IMG/VR virus record: IMGVR_UViG_3300030393_000019
Location: 1-30,082 of that record
Origin: a virus
Reading direction: 5' to 3' (one strand)
Length of the DNA stretch: 30,082 bases
Shown: positions 1 through 30,082 of the stretch, piece after piece
How the letters are laid out: each line of letters begins with the position of its first letter
Position numbering within the stretch: the stretch's first letter is position 1
Notes under the pieces: model-generated
Databases searched by the model: none
Told to the model about the DNA's origin: nothing
What the model saw: the letters and a program-made list of their open reading frames with translations, nothing else
Program-made: the position numbers and the translations under genes

Positions 1-64
1 ATGTTGTTTCCTGTGATTTTACTTTCAAAAACTAATGTATTTTACAATTGCCAAAGAAAATTAA

Positions 65-72
65 TATCTTTG
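65..72 (+). promoter_or_regulatory. Bacteroidota-type -7 promoter element upstream of rloA
   Basis: The sequence TATCTTTG matches the TAnnTTTG -7 consensus of the primary sigma factor of Bacteroidota. It lies 39 bases before the ATG at 112. A TTG at 48-50 is closer than the usual -33 spacing, so the upstream half is weak. The element supports translation starting at 112 and not at the in-frame ATG at base 1, which would lie upstream of the transcript. Confidence 0.5.
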
Positions 73-111
73 CAAGAAATAAAAATACTTACTAAGAAAA
101 AGGATACGGAA

Positions 112-1437
112 ATGATTTTACAGTTTTCAATCAAAAATTATAAAACATTCAAAGAGAAAGCTACTTTGAGTTTTATTGCATCTAATTACGATAAAGAGAC
201 CCGTGAAGATGAAAACATATACTACAATGAAAGATTTGGATTTAGATTGCTAAAAAGTGCTGTAGTATTTGGAGCTAATGCAAGTGGAAAAAGTAAGTTG
301 TTTGAAGCTTTTAGGTTTATGAAGCGATATATTAGAAATAGTTCTAAAGAAGGGCAAAAGGGAGATGAAATTGATGTTGATCCTTTTAGACTAAATAGCC
401 TAACTGAAAATGAACCATCAGAATTTGAAATAACCTTTATTCACCGAGATGTACAATACAGATATGGGTTTGAAGTAACCAGAAGTGAGGTTATTTCGGA
501 ATGGCTGTATCAAAAACGAAAGATAAAAGAAGTTGAGTTGTTTTATAGAGACGATACAGGAGTTGAATTACACGAAAGAAATTTTTCTAAAGGGAAAAGG
601 ATCGTAAAAGAAGAGTTGCTAAGAGAGAATGCTCTTTTAATTTCAGTGGCAGCGCAGTTCAACGATGTGACTTCAATCGAAGTTCTTGAATGGTTTAAAG
701 GGTTAATAAATCTTTCGGGTCTTGATGAGTCTGGATATAAAGGTTTTACTGTAAGCAAGGCCGATGATCTAGTTGAAAAAATAAAAATTCTAAATTTACT
801 AAAGGCTGCGGATTTGGGCATCAAGGATATTCAACCAAAAAGACTAGATTTAGATAAATTACCAAAAGATCTTCCAGAAGAAATAAAGAATAAAATTCTT
901 CGTGAAGTTGAAGAAGAAAAAGCAGAATTTTTTTCAGGGGTTTTAACGGCACATGATAAGCATGATGAAGAAGGAAACTCCATAGATGGTGTACAGTTTT
1001 CACTTGAAGATGACGAATCGTCAGGAACAAGAAAGTTTTTCGCATTGACAGGGCCTATTTTAGATGTTCTCAAAAATGGATATATTCTTGTAGTTGATGA
1101 GTTAGATTCTAAGCTACACCCTAATTTAGTATGCAAAATAGTATCGCTGTTTAATTCTAAAGAGTTTAACCCAAATAATGCTCAATTAATTTTTAATACT
1201 CATAACACCAATCTTTTAAATTCAGGATTGTTTAGACGTGATCAAATTTGGTTTACTGAGAAGAATAAGTTTGGAGAAGCTAAATTATTTTCTCTAGCAG
1301 ATTTTAAATCAAAAGATGTGAATAAAAAAGACCCATTTGAAGAGCATTATATTGATGGAAGGTATGGAGCAATTCCTTTTTTAGGCTTATTTGATAACTT
1401 AGATTATATTCTATCGCCTCATGAAGATGAAAAGTAA
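112..1437 (+). CDS. rloA: RloA-like AAA15/ABC-type ATPase, defence-associated
   Basis: This encodes a 441-residue ATPase of the AAA15/RloA (AbiLi-like) group. With the start at 112 the P-loop GANASGKS falls at residues 54-61, an ABC-signature-like SSGTR at about 303-307, the Walker B VVDELD around D329-E330, and a switch-like His in FNTHN near 364. The N-terminus (MILQFSIKNYKTF) is typical of the family. The frame is open back to base 1, but a -7 promoter element at 65-72 and the family N-terminus favour 112. It overlaps rloB by 17 bases, so the two are translationally coupled. It is on the opposite strand from the phage lysis genes and looks more A+T-rich than the structural genes, fitting a cargo or moron gene. 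Family membership is clear; the biological role as ATPase partner of RloB in phage defence is inferred from AbiL and RloAB relatives. Confidence 0.85.
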   Translation: MILQFSIKNYKTFKEKATLSFIASNYDKETREDENIYYNERFGFRLLKSAVVFGANASGKSKLFEAFRFMKRYIRNSSKEGQKGDEIDVDPFRLNSLTENEPSEFEITFIHRDVQYRYGFEVTRSEVISEWLYQKRKIKEVELFYRDDTGVELHERNFSKGKRIVKEELLRENALLISVAAQFNDVTSIEVLEWFKGLINLSGLDESGYKGFTVSKADDLVEKIKILNLLKAADLGIKDIQPKRLDLDKLPKDLPEEIKNKILREVEEEKAEFFSGVLTAHDKHDEEGNSIDGVQFSLEDDESSGTRKFFALTGPILDVLKNGYILVVDELDSKLHPNLVCKIVSLFNSKEFNPNNAQLIFNTHNTNLLNSGLFRRDQIWFTEKNKFGEAKLFSLADFKSKDVNKKDPFEEHYIDGRYGAIPFLGLFDNLDYILSPHEDEK

Positions 1438-2131
1438 AAGAGAAAAAGATATTGCTAAAATAAAAGCACATAGAGATTTACTGAAAGAACAGAGAAGAGG
1501 CAAGCAGAATATTGAAAGGAAAGAAGCTACTTTAGAAGAGAAGCCTACAATATTAATTGTATGTGAAGGAAAAAATACTGAGCCTTCATATTTTAAACAA
1601 TTTAAACTTTCATCTGCAACTGTAAAAGCAATAGGTGAGGGTTATAATACTGTTTCATTAGTAAAACGAACTGAGCAATTAGCTAAGATAAAGGATTATG
1701 ATCAAGTTTGGTGTGTATTTGATAAAGATGATTTTAATGATACTGATTTCAACAATGCAATATTAATGTCAGAAGGTTTAGACTTCAACACTGCTTATTC
1801 TAATCAAGCTTTTGAATATTGGTTGATACTTCATTTTAATGACCATCAAGGAGCAGGTATGCTTCGTAGTGATTACGATGATGTAATAAATGGTTTGCTT
1901 GAATCATTACCATCCACTGTAGTTTATGATGGGAAAAGAAGTAAATTAATTGAAGAAGACTTTTTCAATTTATTAGTTGGTATTGATACAAAAACAAATA
2001 ACAGAAGAGTTGATTTAGCAATAAAAAGAGCAGAAAGAAATTATAATCAACATGACCATTTAAACCCTGCTAGCGAACAATCAACAACAACAGTTTTTAA
2101 ACTGGTAAGAGAGTTGTTGAAATACGTTTAA
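1421..2131 (+). CDS. rloB: RloB-like TOPRIM-fold protein (AbiLii-like effector)
   Basis: This 236-residue protein belongs to the RloB family. A basic N-terminal helix (about residues 4-35) precedes a TOPRIM-like core: ILIVCEGKNTEP at about 44-55 contains the conserved Glu (E49), and VWCVFDKDDF at about 96-105 contains the DxD pair (D101, D103). RloB/AbiLii proteins pair with an AAA15 ATPase in abortive-infection systems, and the family is thought to act as a nucleic-acid nuclease. The ATG at 1421 overlaps the end of rloA; the ATG at 1427 is an alternative. The gene is followed by a strong hairpin and T-run, so rloA-rloB forms a self-contained two-gene unit convergent with the phage late genes. 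Confidence 0.85.
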   Translation: MKMKSKREKDIAKIKAHRDLLKEQRRGKQNIERKEATLEEKPTILIVCEGKNTEPSYFKQFKLSSATVKAIGEGYNTVSLVKRTEQLAKIKDYDQVWCVFDKDDFNDTDFNNAILMSEGLDFNTAYSNQAFEYWLILHFNDHQGAGMLRSDYDDVINGLLESLPSTVVYDGKRSKLIEEDFFNLLVGIDTKTNNRRVDLAIKRAERNYNQHDHLNPASEQSTTTVFKLVRELLKYV

Positions 2132-27189: not shown

Positions 27190-27606
27190 ATGTTTCAAAT
27201 GATTGATATACAGAATATTACAGACAAGGAACTGCATGATAAAATTGTAGAATATTGTAATTTAAATGGAATAACAGGTTATGATATATCCAAAAACACA
27301 GGAGTATCAAAAAATCAAGCTGCAAATATTCTTAAAAATGAAACCGTAAACCCAAGAAGAACAACGCTTTTAAAAATATGGAACTATATTTCTAATATAG
27401 AAAGTGGAATTATAAAAACTGAACCAAAACAGACTACCACAACTGAATTAGAGAAATATTTAGCCCTAAGTAATAAGATAATAGAGCTACAACAGGATAA
27501 TATGGATTTTTTAAAGCGTGAGCGTGAGTATATAAAAACCATTATGCAATTAAAGAAAGTACTAGAGCAACATAATATAGATTACAGCCATATAACCCCT
27601 GAGTAA
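27190..27606 (+). CDS. HTH-type phage repressor
   Basis: This 138-residue protein has an N-terminal helix-turn-helix (about 28-50; GYDISKNTGVSKNQAANIL) of the XRE type and a C-terminal half that is a likely coiled coil (LEKYLALSNKIIELQQDNMDFLKRERE). It has no S24 peptidase domain, so RecA-driven self-cleavage is not expected. It is divergent from the early operon and is the best candidate for the lysogeny repressor. The ATG at 27199 is an alternative start. Confidence 0.75.
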   Translation: MFQMIDIQNITDKELHDKIVEYCNLNGITGYDISKNTGVSKNQAANILKNETVNPRRTTLLKIWNYISNIESGIIKTEPKQTTTTELEKYLALSNKIIELQQDNMDFLKREREYIKTIMQLKKVLEQHNIDYSHITPE

Positions 27607-27639: not shown

Positions 27640-28209
27640 ATGAAAAAATTACTGTTTGTTCTATTATTTATACCAATTCTTGTTAATAGTCAAGAGATAA
27701 AAATCGAATTTGACGAATTCGAAAAATCAACAACCGTTACTTCTGAATTTTTTAAGAATGGAAAATTTGACTTGAAACAATCAGCAGGTAAAAATAGATT
27801 CTTTAGTTTAAATGCTTTATACTATAAACCTAAAAACAAAGAAGGTTATTTTTTTATAGATATTTTACTTGTTTCCGAAGCATCTAAAATTACCTGCCTA
27901 AGTGAATATAAAGGTAAAATAACATTTTTATTAGAAAATGATACCACATTAGAATGTCTACAAATAAGTCGTACGGATTGTGATAGTGGTCTTATTGGAG
28001 CTAGGTATATTGCTGCACCAAGTATGAAAGTAGTAAGTTATGCATTTACAAGTAGTCATTTTTTATTATTAAGTCATCTTAGTATAAAAAAGATCAGAAT
28101 TGCAACTACAGACGGAAATATCGATATTGAAATTGATGAAGACTATAAAGAATATCTAAAAAATTGTTTTAAAAAAGTTCATGACAAAGGAGAGGAGCTT
28201 AAACAATAA
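27640..28209 (+). CDS. Exported protein of unknown function, paralog 1
   Basis: This 189-residue protein starts with a clear signal peptide (MKKLLFVLLFIPILVNSQE) with probable cleavage before QE. The mature part shares with paralog 2 the motifs NGKFDL, a TLEC motif with a nearby second Cys (DCDSGLIGAR), and IKKIRIATTDGNIDIEIDEDYK near the end. It looks beta-rich. It is on the plus strand between repressor and integrase genes and has its own -7 element, so it may be expressed in the lysogen. Its stop overlaps a short relic of an integrase gene end. It is not a family that I recognise; a role in superinfection exclusion or host surface change is only a guess. Confidence 0.7.
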   Translation: MKKLLFVLLFIPILVNSQEIKIEFDEFEKSTTVTSEFFKNGKFDLKQSAGKNRFFSLNALYYKPKNKEGYFFIDILLVSEASKITCLSEYKGKITFLLENDTTLECLQISRTDCDSGLIGARYIAAPSMKVVSYAFTSSHFLLLSHLSIKKIRIATTDGNIDIEIDEDYKEYLKNCFKKVHDKGEELKQ

Positions 28210-28242
28210 CTTTATACAAAGCTTCATCACGCATTGCTTCAG
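28204..28242 (-). pseudogene. 39-bp relic of an integrase gene 3' end
   Basis: This stretch matches the real integrase 3' end at 28867-28905 at 35 of 39 positions, with 22 bases at one end identical. Read on the minus strand it encodes EAMRDEALYKVI, against EAMRDEALYRVIA of the integrase. It sits just after paralog 1 exactly as the real integrase end sits after paralog 2. Confidence 0.8.
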
Positions 28243-28305
28243 CGGAATTTAAAGTTTACTATAACCAAATTACTTAGCATTATTCTATTACATAATTTCA
28301 CTATA

Positions 28306-28872
28306 ATGAAAAAAATATTTTTACTATTTCTATTTGCACATACATTAATCTTACAAAGTCAAGAGTTAAAAACTGAAACAGATAAAACTAATGAAATAAT
28401 AATCACTACCGAACTTTTAGTTGATGGAAAACTCGATTTAGACAAATCCGTAGGGAAAGATAGAGTTCTATTTGTATTACCCGTATTCCAAAAACCCGTG
28501 GACCTAGAGGGTTTTTATAGTGTGGATATTGTTTTTGACACAAAACAATTAAAGGTTTGTTTAGACCAATTAAGTGGTAAAACAATATTTTATTTTGATG
28601 ATGATAGTACTTTAGAATGTGCACAGTTAGTGCCTAAGGTATGCAAATCAACACTTCTAGGTTGTAGATTTTTAGCAGGTAAAAGTATGGATTCGTTTGG
28701 TTATGATTATACAAAAAATGAATTCATGAAATTATGCAATAAAACCATATCAAAAATTAGAGTAGTAACTACTGAAGGTAACATTGATATTGAAATAAAA
28801 GATGATTATAAACAGTTTTTACAAAACAGCTTTATAAAAGTTAGTAAAAAAGCTAATGAATTTATGCAATAA
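28306..28872 (+). CDS. Exported protein of unknown function, paralog 2
   Basis: This 188-residue protein is a diverged copy of paralog 1. A signal peptide (MKKIFLLFLFAHTLILQSQE) is followed by the shared motifs DGKLDL, STLECAQL with VCKSTLLGCR, and ISKIRVVTTEGNIDIEIKDDYK. The Cys in TLEC and in the following C-x-S/T-x-L-x-G are conserved in both and may form a disulphide. The frame extends upstream to 28234 inside the repeat, but the signal peptide fixes the ATG at 28306. Its 3' end overlaps the integrase gene end by 11 bases on the opposite strand. Function unknown. Confidence 0.7.
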   Translation: MKKIFLLFLFAHTLILQSQELKTETDKTNEIIITTELLVDGKLDLDKSVGKDRVLFVLPVFQKPVDLEGFYSVDIVFDTKQLKVCLDQLSGKTIFYFDDDSTLECAQLVPKVCKSTLLGCRFLAGKSMDSFGYDYTKNEFMKLCNKTISKIRVVTTEGNIDIEIKDDYKQFLQNSFIKVSKKANEFMQ

Positions 28873-30082
28873 CCCTATATAACGCTTCATCACGCATTGC
28901 TTCAGGGTATCTATCTTTGTAATAATTATCTATTTCATCACGTTCGTGCCCTTGTAACTCACGAAGTAAATCTTCATCAATACCCATTGTTTTTGCAATA
29001 CTAGCAAAAGTGTGGCGTGCTACTTTGTGACCCCAAATACCACCAGCTCCGCTTAATTCAATACCGTGCTTTATTTGTGCCTTTTTTAAAGCATCATACG
29101 CTTTACGGCGGTGTGTTTTATAACCATCTACATCTTTACGCCAAGGGAATACGTATTCACCATCTTGTTTATACTTATCAATAATAGTTTGAGCCTTTGG
29201 GTGTACTTTCAAGTCTATAGCAACACCGCTATTACCTTTATTACGATTAAAATATACACGACCATTACGCAATTGTTCATTTTTAAGGTAGTATATATCC
29301 ATATAATCAGCACCAGCAAAGTAATACTGTAATAACCAAAAATCAGTAAAACGGTATAGAGTAGGGTAGTCGTGCTCTATAACTTCTATCTTTTTAATCA
29401 TTTCAGCACTCATATTTTTTTTACGTGCTGCATAACTTTTAACAGTAAGCCCCTTCATAACTCCTTCAAACGGGTTGCTAGCTTCAAACTCATGGATCTT
29501 TATAAACTTATTGTATAAAGCTCTTAGCGTGCGTAAATATAACGATACAGTCGATTTGCTATTACCTTTTTGCAATCGCGCATCACGAAACTGCATTAAT
29601 AACTTAAAAGTAATACCACTAAACTTTATACCAGGTGCAAATACATCAAATTCAATTAAAGCGCGCTCATATACTCGCGCATTACCACGTGCTTTATTAG
29701 CATTAATATAATCTTTACGCTTTTCATAAGAGTTAGCTGAGGCTTCTAGTTCAGATACTACAGCCATACCCATATCATTAAATGTACCTAAATCAACAGC
29801 TTTTTTTTCATTGAATAAATTCTCATATACCTCATTAATATCATCAGGGCGCGATAATAGTATTTTTTTAGCCTTAGCTTTCCATACTTGTATTTTAGGT
29901 GCTAGTATATCATAATCAGGGTGGCGGCTCGATAATAGCTCTTCAGATGCTATCCAGTGCTCAGGTAGGCAATTACAAATTTTATATTTTTTGCGTTTAC
30001 CTTTATGTGATAATATGAAAATAAGAGAATAGCCATTTTTGTTTAATGGCTCAGTAGTTAAGAGCTTTATATTTATAGTCAT
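28862..30082 (-). CDS. int: Tyrosine recombinase (phage integrase), IntDOT-like active site
   Basis: This 406-residue integrase has an N-terminal arm-binding region (about 1-95), a core-binding SAM-like domain (about 100-200) and a catalytic domain. Active-site residues: K282 (beta-hairpin), R356 in KVARHTFA, H379 in LQGHE, and the nucleophile Y388 in DNYYKD. The first Arg (in the usual TGxR) is replaced: GADYMD has Asp at 259; the usual box II His is Lys (K353). Such changes occur in Bacteroidota recombinases such as IntDOT. The ATG is at the window edge and gives a family-like N-terminus, so the gene is probably complete. Confidence 0.9.
   Translation of the reverse strand: MTINIKLLTTEPLNKNGYSLIFILSHKGKRKKYKICNCLPEHWIASEELLSSRHPDYDILAPKIQVWKAKAKKILLSRPDDINEVYENLFNEKKAVDLGTFNDMGMAVVSELEASANSYEKRKDYINANKARGNARVYERALIEFDVFAPGIKFSGITFKLLMQFRDARLQKGNSKSTVSLYLRTLRALYNKFIKIHEFEASNPFEGVMKGLTVKSYAARKKNMSAEMIKKIEVIEHDYPTLYRFTDFWLLQYYFAGADYMDIYYLKNEQLRNGRVYFNRNKGNSGVAIDLKVHPKAQTIIDKYKQDGEYVFPWRKDVDGYKTHRRKAYDALKKAQIKHGIELSGAGGIWGHKVARHTFASIAKTMGIDEDLLRELQGHERDEIDNYYKDRYPEAMRDEALYRVIA

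Follow-up and report, generated by a model that had tools for sequence, protein, structure and literature searches.

An integrase-tail relic between two sister cargo genes suggests additive cargo acquisition at the integrase 3' end of a prophage

How does a prophage come to carry two related cargo genes in tandem, each ending over the 3' end of an integrase gene, one of these complete and the other a short relic? The question is raised by one end of the window, by which we mean the whole stretch of DNA that was analysed (30,082 nt, C5:439-30520 in an assembly of 2.5 Mb that is 84% complete). In this flavobacterial prophage the genes of a tailed phage lead into a CI-like repressor, the cargo genes p1 and p2 (start codons corrected to those in Table 1) and a convergent integrase. 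The p1 and p2 proteins have 75 of 187 aligned residues in common (40%) and both carry signal peptides.

Table 1. Features at the repressor-integrase end of the window.
Feature	Position	Strand	Basis
CI-like repressor, upstream flank of the cargo block	27190..27606	+	Pfam HTH_3, 8e-6; same place in relatives
p1, presumed older cargo gene, predicted exported protein, 189 aa	27640..28209	+	family members in L084, L059, L087, L079, L078
Relic of integrase 3' end, 14 codons and stop	28199..28242	-	overlaps p1 end; tail-scan score 58 against a null maximum of 33
Joint, integrase similarity stops	28242..28243		28243-28305 without homology to 28906-28990
Block between the two tails, 63-nt spacer and p2	28243..28861		order by analogy with L067/L063
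p2, presumed newer cargo gene, predicted exported protein, 188 aa, sister of p1	28306..28872	+	sequence, tree
3' end of working integrase, second repeat copy	28862..28905	-	sequence
Tyrosine recombinase (phage integrase)	28862..30082	-	PF00589, 1.9e-8

The segments 28204-28242 and 28867-28905 are identical at 35 of 39 positions and share a perfect 22-nt core, for which 100 shuffles of the window give no match with three or fewer mismatches; the host assembly holds two copies of the repeat, both those of the window. On the minus strand the relic encodes AEAMRDEALYKVIV and the integrase tail PEAMRDEALYRVIA, in frame and each closed by a stop codon. The overlap of p1 with the relic (28199 to 28209) is like that of p2 with the integrase (28862 to 28872), about 10–11 nt in each case. 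The repeat reported in the original prediction is thus real and rightly placed, lies beyond chance, is in frame and has the same cargo overlap in both units. No extension of the repeat was found beyond 28242, and a search for a repressor-tail relic upstream of p2 gave nothing significant. The relic is best explained as what remains of the 3' end of an earlier integrase. It is not decayed, and other integrases are no more distant from it than from the working tail. The two tails differ mostly at synonymous sites; as to the one replacement described as Arg to Lys, Lys, the residue of the relic, is the commoner one in relatives, so that the change, if anything, arose in the working integrase.

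A well-preserved repeat that adjoins an integrase gene could also be an attachment site or another functional element (a terminator) and not a scar, a reading that we regard as highly improbable. The integrase start (L004:1521) is 158 nt from a tRNA-Arg(TCT) gene (L004:1680-1754) that lies just outside the window and belongs to a Ser-Pro-Arg tRNA cluster, and a related integrase (43% identical) in L039, from the same genus, sits at the same cluster. The att site therefore probably lies on the 5' side of the integrase, opposite the repeat, which was rejected as att core on these grounds and as terminator on finding no strong hairpin; the att core itself is not seen and the other att end is absent from the contig. 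A functional element is also difficult to reconcile with the absence of a second repeat copy from 52 of the 56 related (pro)phage integrase loci compared (window included; 51 first, five added later). The tRNA-Arg(TCT) gene adjoins unrelated or distant integrases of other genomes in L039, L043 and L042, for which it is a common integration site, and the Ser-Pro-Arg cluster is found in L039 and L043.

The tree places p1 and p2 together as sisters (support 98/97), a grouping of either with L084 or L059 being rejected by AU tests; each is thus the closest relative of the other. This kinship to the exclusion of the sampled relatives, and the identical overlap geometry in the two units, is what a simple tandem duplication of cargo and integrase end inside one phage, with later divergence of the cargo, would leave behind. 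We nevertheless consider such a duplication unlikely. The divergence is not equal across the unit, with dN 0.40–0.47 and dS 0.69–1.16 for p1/p2 and dN 0.10 and dS 0.65 for the tails (14 codons only). A relic drifting freely since the p1/p2 split is expected to differ at about 29–52% of sites (dS 0.6–1.5), and the four differences in 39 positions that are observed have a probability of 5e-3 (dS 0.6) to 5e-8 (dS 1.5); the relic is too similar for a drifting copy as old as that split. The regions upstream of p1 and p2 lack homology to one another. Integrases that are ~40% identical still share up to 28–30 of 36 tail bases; tails are thus conserved in general, and 90% identity alone is no sign of a recent copy. 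Over the 14 codons compared, the two tails look like working integrase ends of similar age, as if from sister phages.

The wider set of loci places this arrangement in context. Among the first 51, a convergent gene ends between -38 and +26 nt of the integrase stop in 38, and the cargo families found there are unrelated: besides p1/p2 they include a 125-aa exported family (L039, L060, L063 and others), DUF4468 or similar (L019, 6e-10) and others, with stacks of two or three cargo genes at many loci. The repressor and the integrase flank a block whose content varies between close relatives, as in a hotspot. Of 49 close integrase pairs (DNA identity of 78% or more), 42 lose homology at -36 to +15 nt relative to the stop codon, most often at -1, which makes the integrase stop a sharp module boundary. 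The suggestion that the spot is a recurrent acquisition site is supported by relatives that have other cargo at this junction, among them L039, which occupies the same tRNA-Arg site. Searches for a close relative or donor of the window (viral contigs and GenBank phages for integrase and cargo, genome contigs for integrase) found none, nor did a tail pattern search in 399 genomes of the genus find a close relative. In L045, from the same locus as L018 and L009, two tandem related membrane-protein genes lie at the integrase 3' flank, a second case of one-family cargo stacking; no integrase-tail relic was detected in this flank.

Where the cargo overlaps in the -10 geometry, a TTA in the integrase tail provides, on the opposite strand, the stop codon of the cargo gene; the window is one such case, its TTATTG reading CAATAA in antisense. 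One might picture the integrase 3' end as a dedicated capture site, at which the conserved TTATTG (antisense CAATAA) caps the cargo with a stop and a recombination activity inserts cargo stepwise, copying the tail and setting the newest gene next to the integrase to build ordered stacks; we think this very unlikely.

Relics comparable to that of the window were sought by scanning the first 1.8 kb past each integrase against all tails, with 102 shuffled or reversed controls as the null (maximum 33). Four of 51 loci score above it (L087 99, the window 58, L074 47 and L067 42), and the five further loci scanned have no relic; L041 was not counted, its gapped tail match (score 38) being doubtful. 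All four relics, which measure about 21, 28, 39 and 64 nt, mark the place where an older convergent cargo gene ends, and the DNA between relic and integrase differs from locus to locus; at each, an older passenger gene is thus kept together with the 3' relic of a displaced gene. The insert of L074 (L074:7212-7845, minus strand) comprises a HicA-like toxin gene (a weak match at 2.6e-5, below the Pfam curated cut-off) and its upstream partner gene, that of L067 a 223-aa plus-strand gene and that of L087 two small genes. In these three phages none of the inserted genes duplicates the older cargo, which again argues against tandem duplication. The same junction beside unrelated inserts, looked for on the strength of the original prediction, is thereby found in three other phages; the repeat is not absent from all relatives, and p1 and p2 do not come from unrelated sources. 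Of the proposal that a unit of gene and integrase end was duplicated or inserted stepwise, the stepwise addition at the integrase end is supported by the relics in four loci, and the simple tandem duplication is disfavoured, p1 and p2 being too diverged for a drifting relic and homology being absent past the repeat. That the repeat guides homologous insertion is a conjecture; relic lengths vary, and most relatives carry no relic.

The pair L067 and L063 (integrases 93% identical) provides the uninterrupted counterpart of one such locus. The cargo abuts the integrase in L063, and in L067 1,153 nt are inserted between the two, flanked by an exact 21-nt repeat of the integrase tail, one copy of which is carried by the cargo; the two copies do not differ, and both have a TGA stop, which is missing in L063. 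The 64-nt relic of L087 has no synonymous change relative to the integrase and retains the terminus GSFECL, whereas the present integrase ends in VIG (each before the stop codon). All three changes confined to the L087 relic (Y to H, D to G, Y to C) are at residues conserved in relatives, which identifies this relic as dead sequence. L067 and, in part, L087 look more like a local duplication of the resident tail, and more than one process may therefore feed the spot. Extended to the window, this would mean that new DNA entered the integrase 3' end and that 20–65 nt were copied locally (by staggered break repair, template switching or a recombinase), the relic being a target-site duplication of the resident integrase. 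The exact repeat around the L067 insert is as expected from such an event, as is the L087 copy, where the older cargo has kept the original terminus (SFECL). Against it, the copy length ranges from 21 to 64 nt, the inserts have no gene in common and no mobility gene was recognised in them, and at synonymous sites the two tails of the window are as far apart as two phages are; for the window we judge target duplication to be quite unlikely.

The reading that we favour, with moderate confidence, is that a mosaic one-sided recombination, possibly facilitated by homology, fused two sister phages that both had cargo abutting the integrase. The layout of these phages has a cargo gene that is flanked by the CI-like repressor and the integrase, reads towards the latter and has its stop inside or against the integrase frame. 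The left part of one phage (repressor, p1 and the last 14 integrase codons) would then have been joined to a stretch of a sister phage as donor (spacer, p2 and complete integrase), the integrase side anchored by homology and the other side an illegitimate joint at 28242/28243. Homology reaches the integrase stop and none is found beyond it, a pattern seen here without the parental sequences. As p1 ends inside the integrase frame, a product with the whole of p1 and a whole integrase must carry an integrase scar. By analogy with L067/L063, the spacer and p2 would have come later, along with the present end of the integrase. At least three relatives would have undergone the same additive event on their own, with different inserts (a HicA-type toxin gene pair and unknown genes). 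Taken together, the loci support the view that the integrase end is a spot of repeated additive cargo acquisition in these phages.

What the cargo does can be approached from its position and sequence. Neither p1 nor p2 has a Pfam, PHROG or PADLOC match, and PADLOC likewise finds no match for the cargo of L059, L063, L067 and L087. A structure model of p2 (pLDDT 86) has no PDB match at E ≤ 0.001; its one match is the viral protein A0A1B0WMU9 (E = 1.2e-6). Our best guess, from the position with the repressor and from export, is a putative role in superinfection exclusion or at the host surface. A host gene just past the Ser-Pro-Arg tRNA cluster (L004:2102-2671, minus strand) is a distant member of the p1/p2 family (iterated HMM, 7e-7) and looks as if it were cargo left at the site by a former prophage; it was rejected as a close p1/p2 paralogue, pairwise BLAST not being significant. 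Further cargo is present at the far end of the prophage, where window positions 1-2131 (plus strand) hold an AbiL/RloAB-type defence operon consisting of an AAA ATPase gene (AAA_21; PADLOC AbiLi 1.8e-103) and an RloB-like gene (PF13707; AbiLii 1.3e-31).

Phage cargo usually arrives without trace, whereas here the tail-to-tail overlap gives each additive event a datable scar, so that the sequence can show in what order, with which partners and how fast flavobacterial prophages gain cargo, and mosaic joining and target duplication become testable against each other. Hotspots between CI and integrase are known, as are arrays built by sequential displacement; the literature searched yielded no integrase-tail relics as a record of such stepwise gain of cargo. 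P2-related phages have a variable defence/cargo hotspot between the cI repressor and the integrase, and P4 has one between psu and int (PMC9122126). Our locus resembles the former in being small, of high turnover and placed between conserved repressor and integrase, with content that differs among close relatives; it differs in belonging to another phage group, in carrying mostly small exported proteins without PADLOC match and in its relics of additive insertion, which are absent from the portion of that source considered here. The Ltp/Sie superinfection-exclusion lipoprotein of TP-J34, a phage of S. thermophilus, is likewise small, exported and encoded next to the integrase within the lysogeny module, and it is expressed in the prophage state (PMC3952083); unlike it, p1 and p2 have no lipobox cysteine after the signal peptide, and so are probably not lipoproteins of the Ltp type, which block DNA injection, and they have no sequence or PDB fold match. 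The TP-778 prophage also has a truncated integrase copy, which can recombine with the intact one (PMC3952083), but that remnant flanks the prophage at its border with the host, whereas the relic of the window is inside the prophage between two cargo genes. In the T6SS immunity arrays of V. cholerae, sequential displacement leaves orphan immunity genes, and homology-facilitated illegitimate recombination has been proposed (PMC5361080). There as here a new module is set beside a conserved anchor gene, the older passenger is kept and the 3' end of the displaced gene can shift back with it; the anchor in our phages, in contrast, is an integrase that is convergent with the cargo and overlaps it, and it is this overlap that forces the scar.
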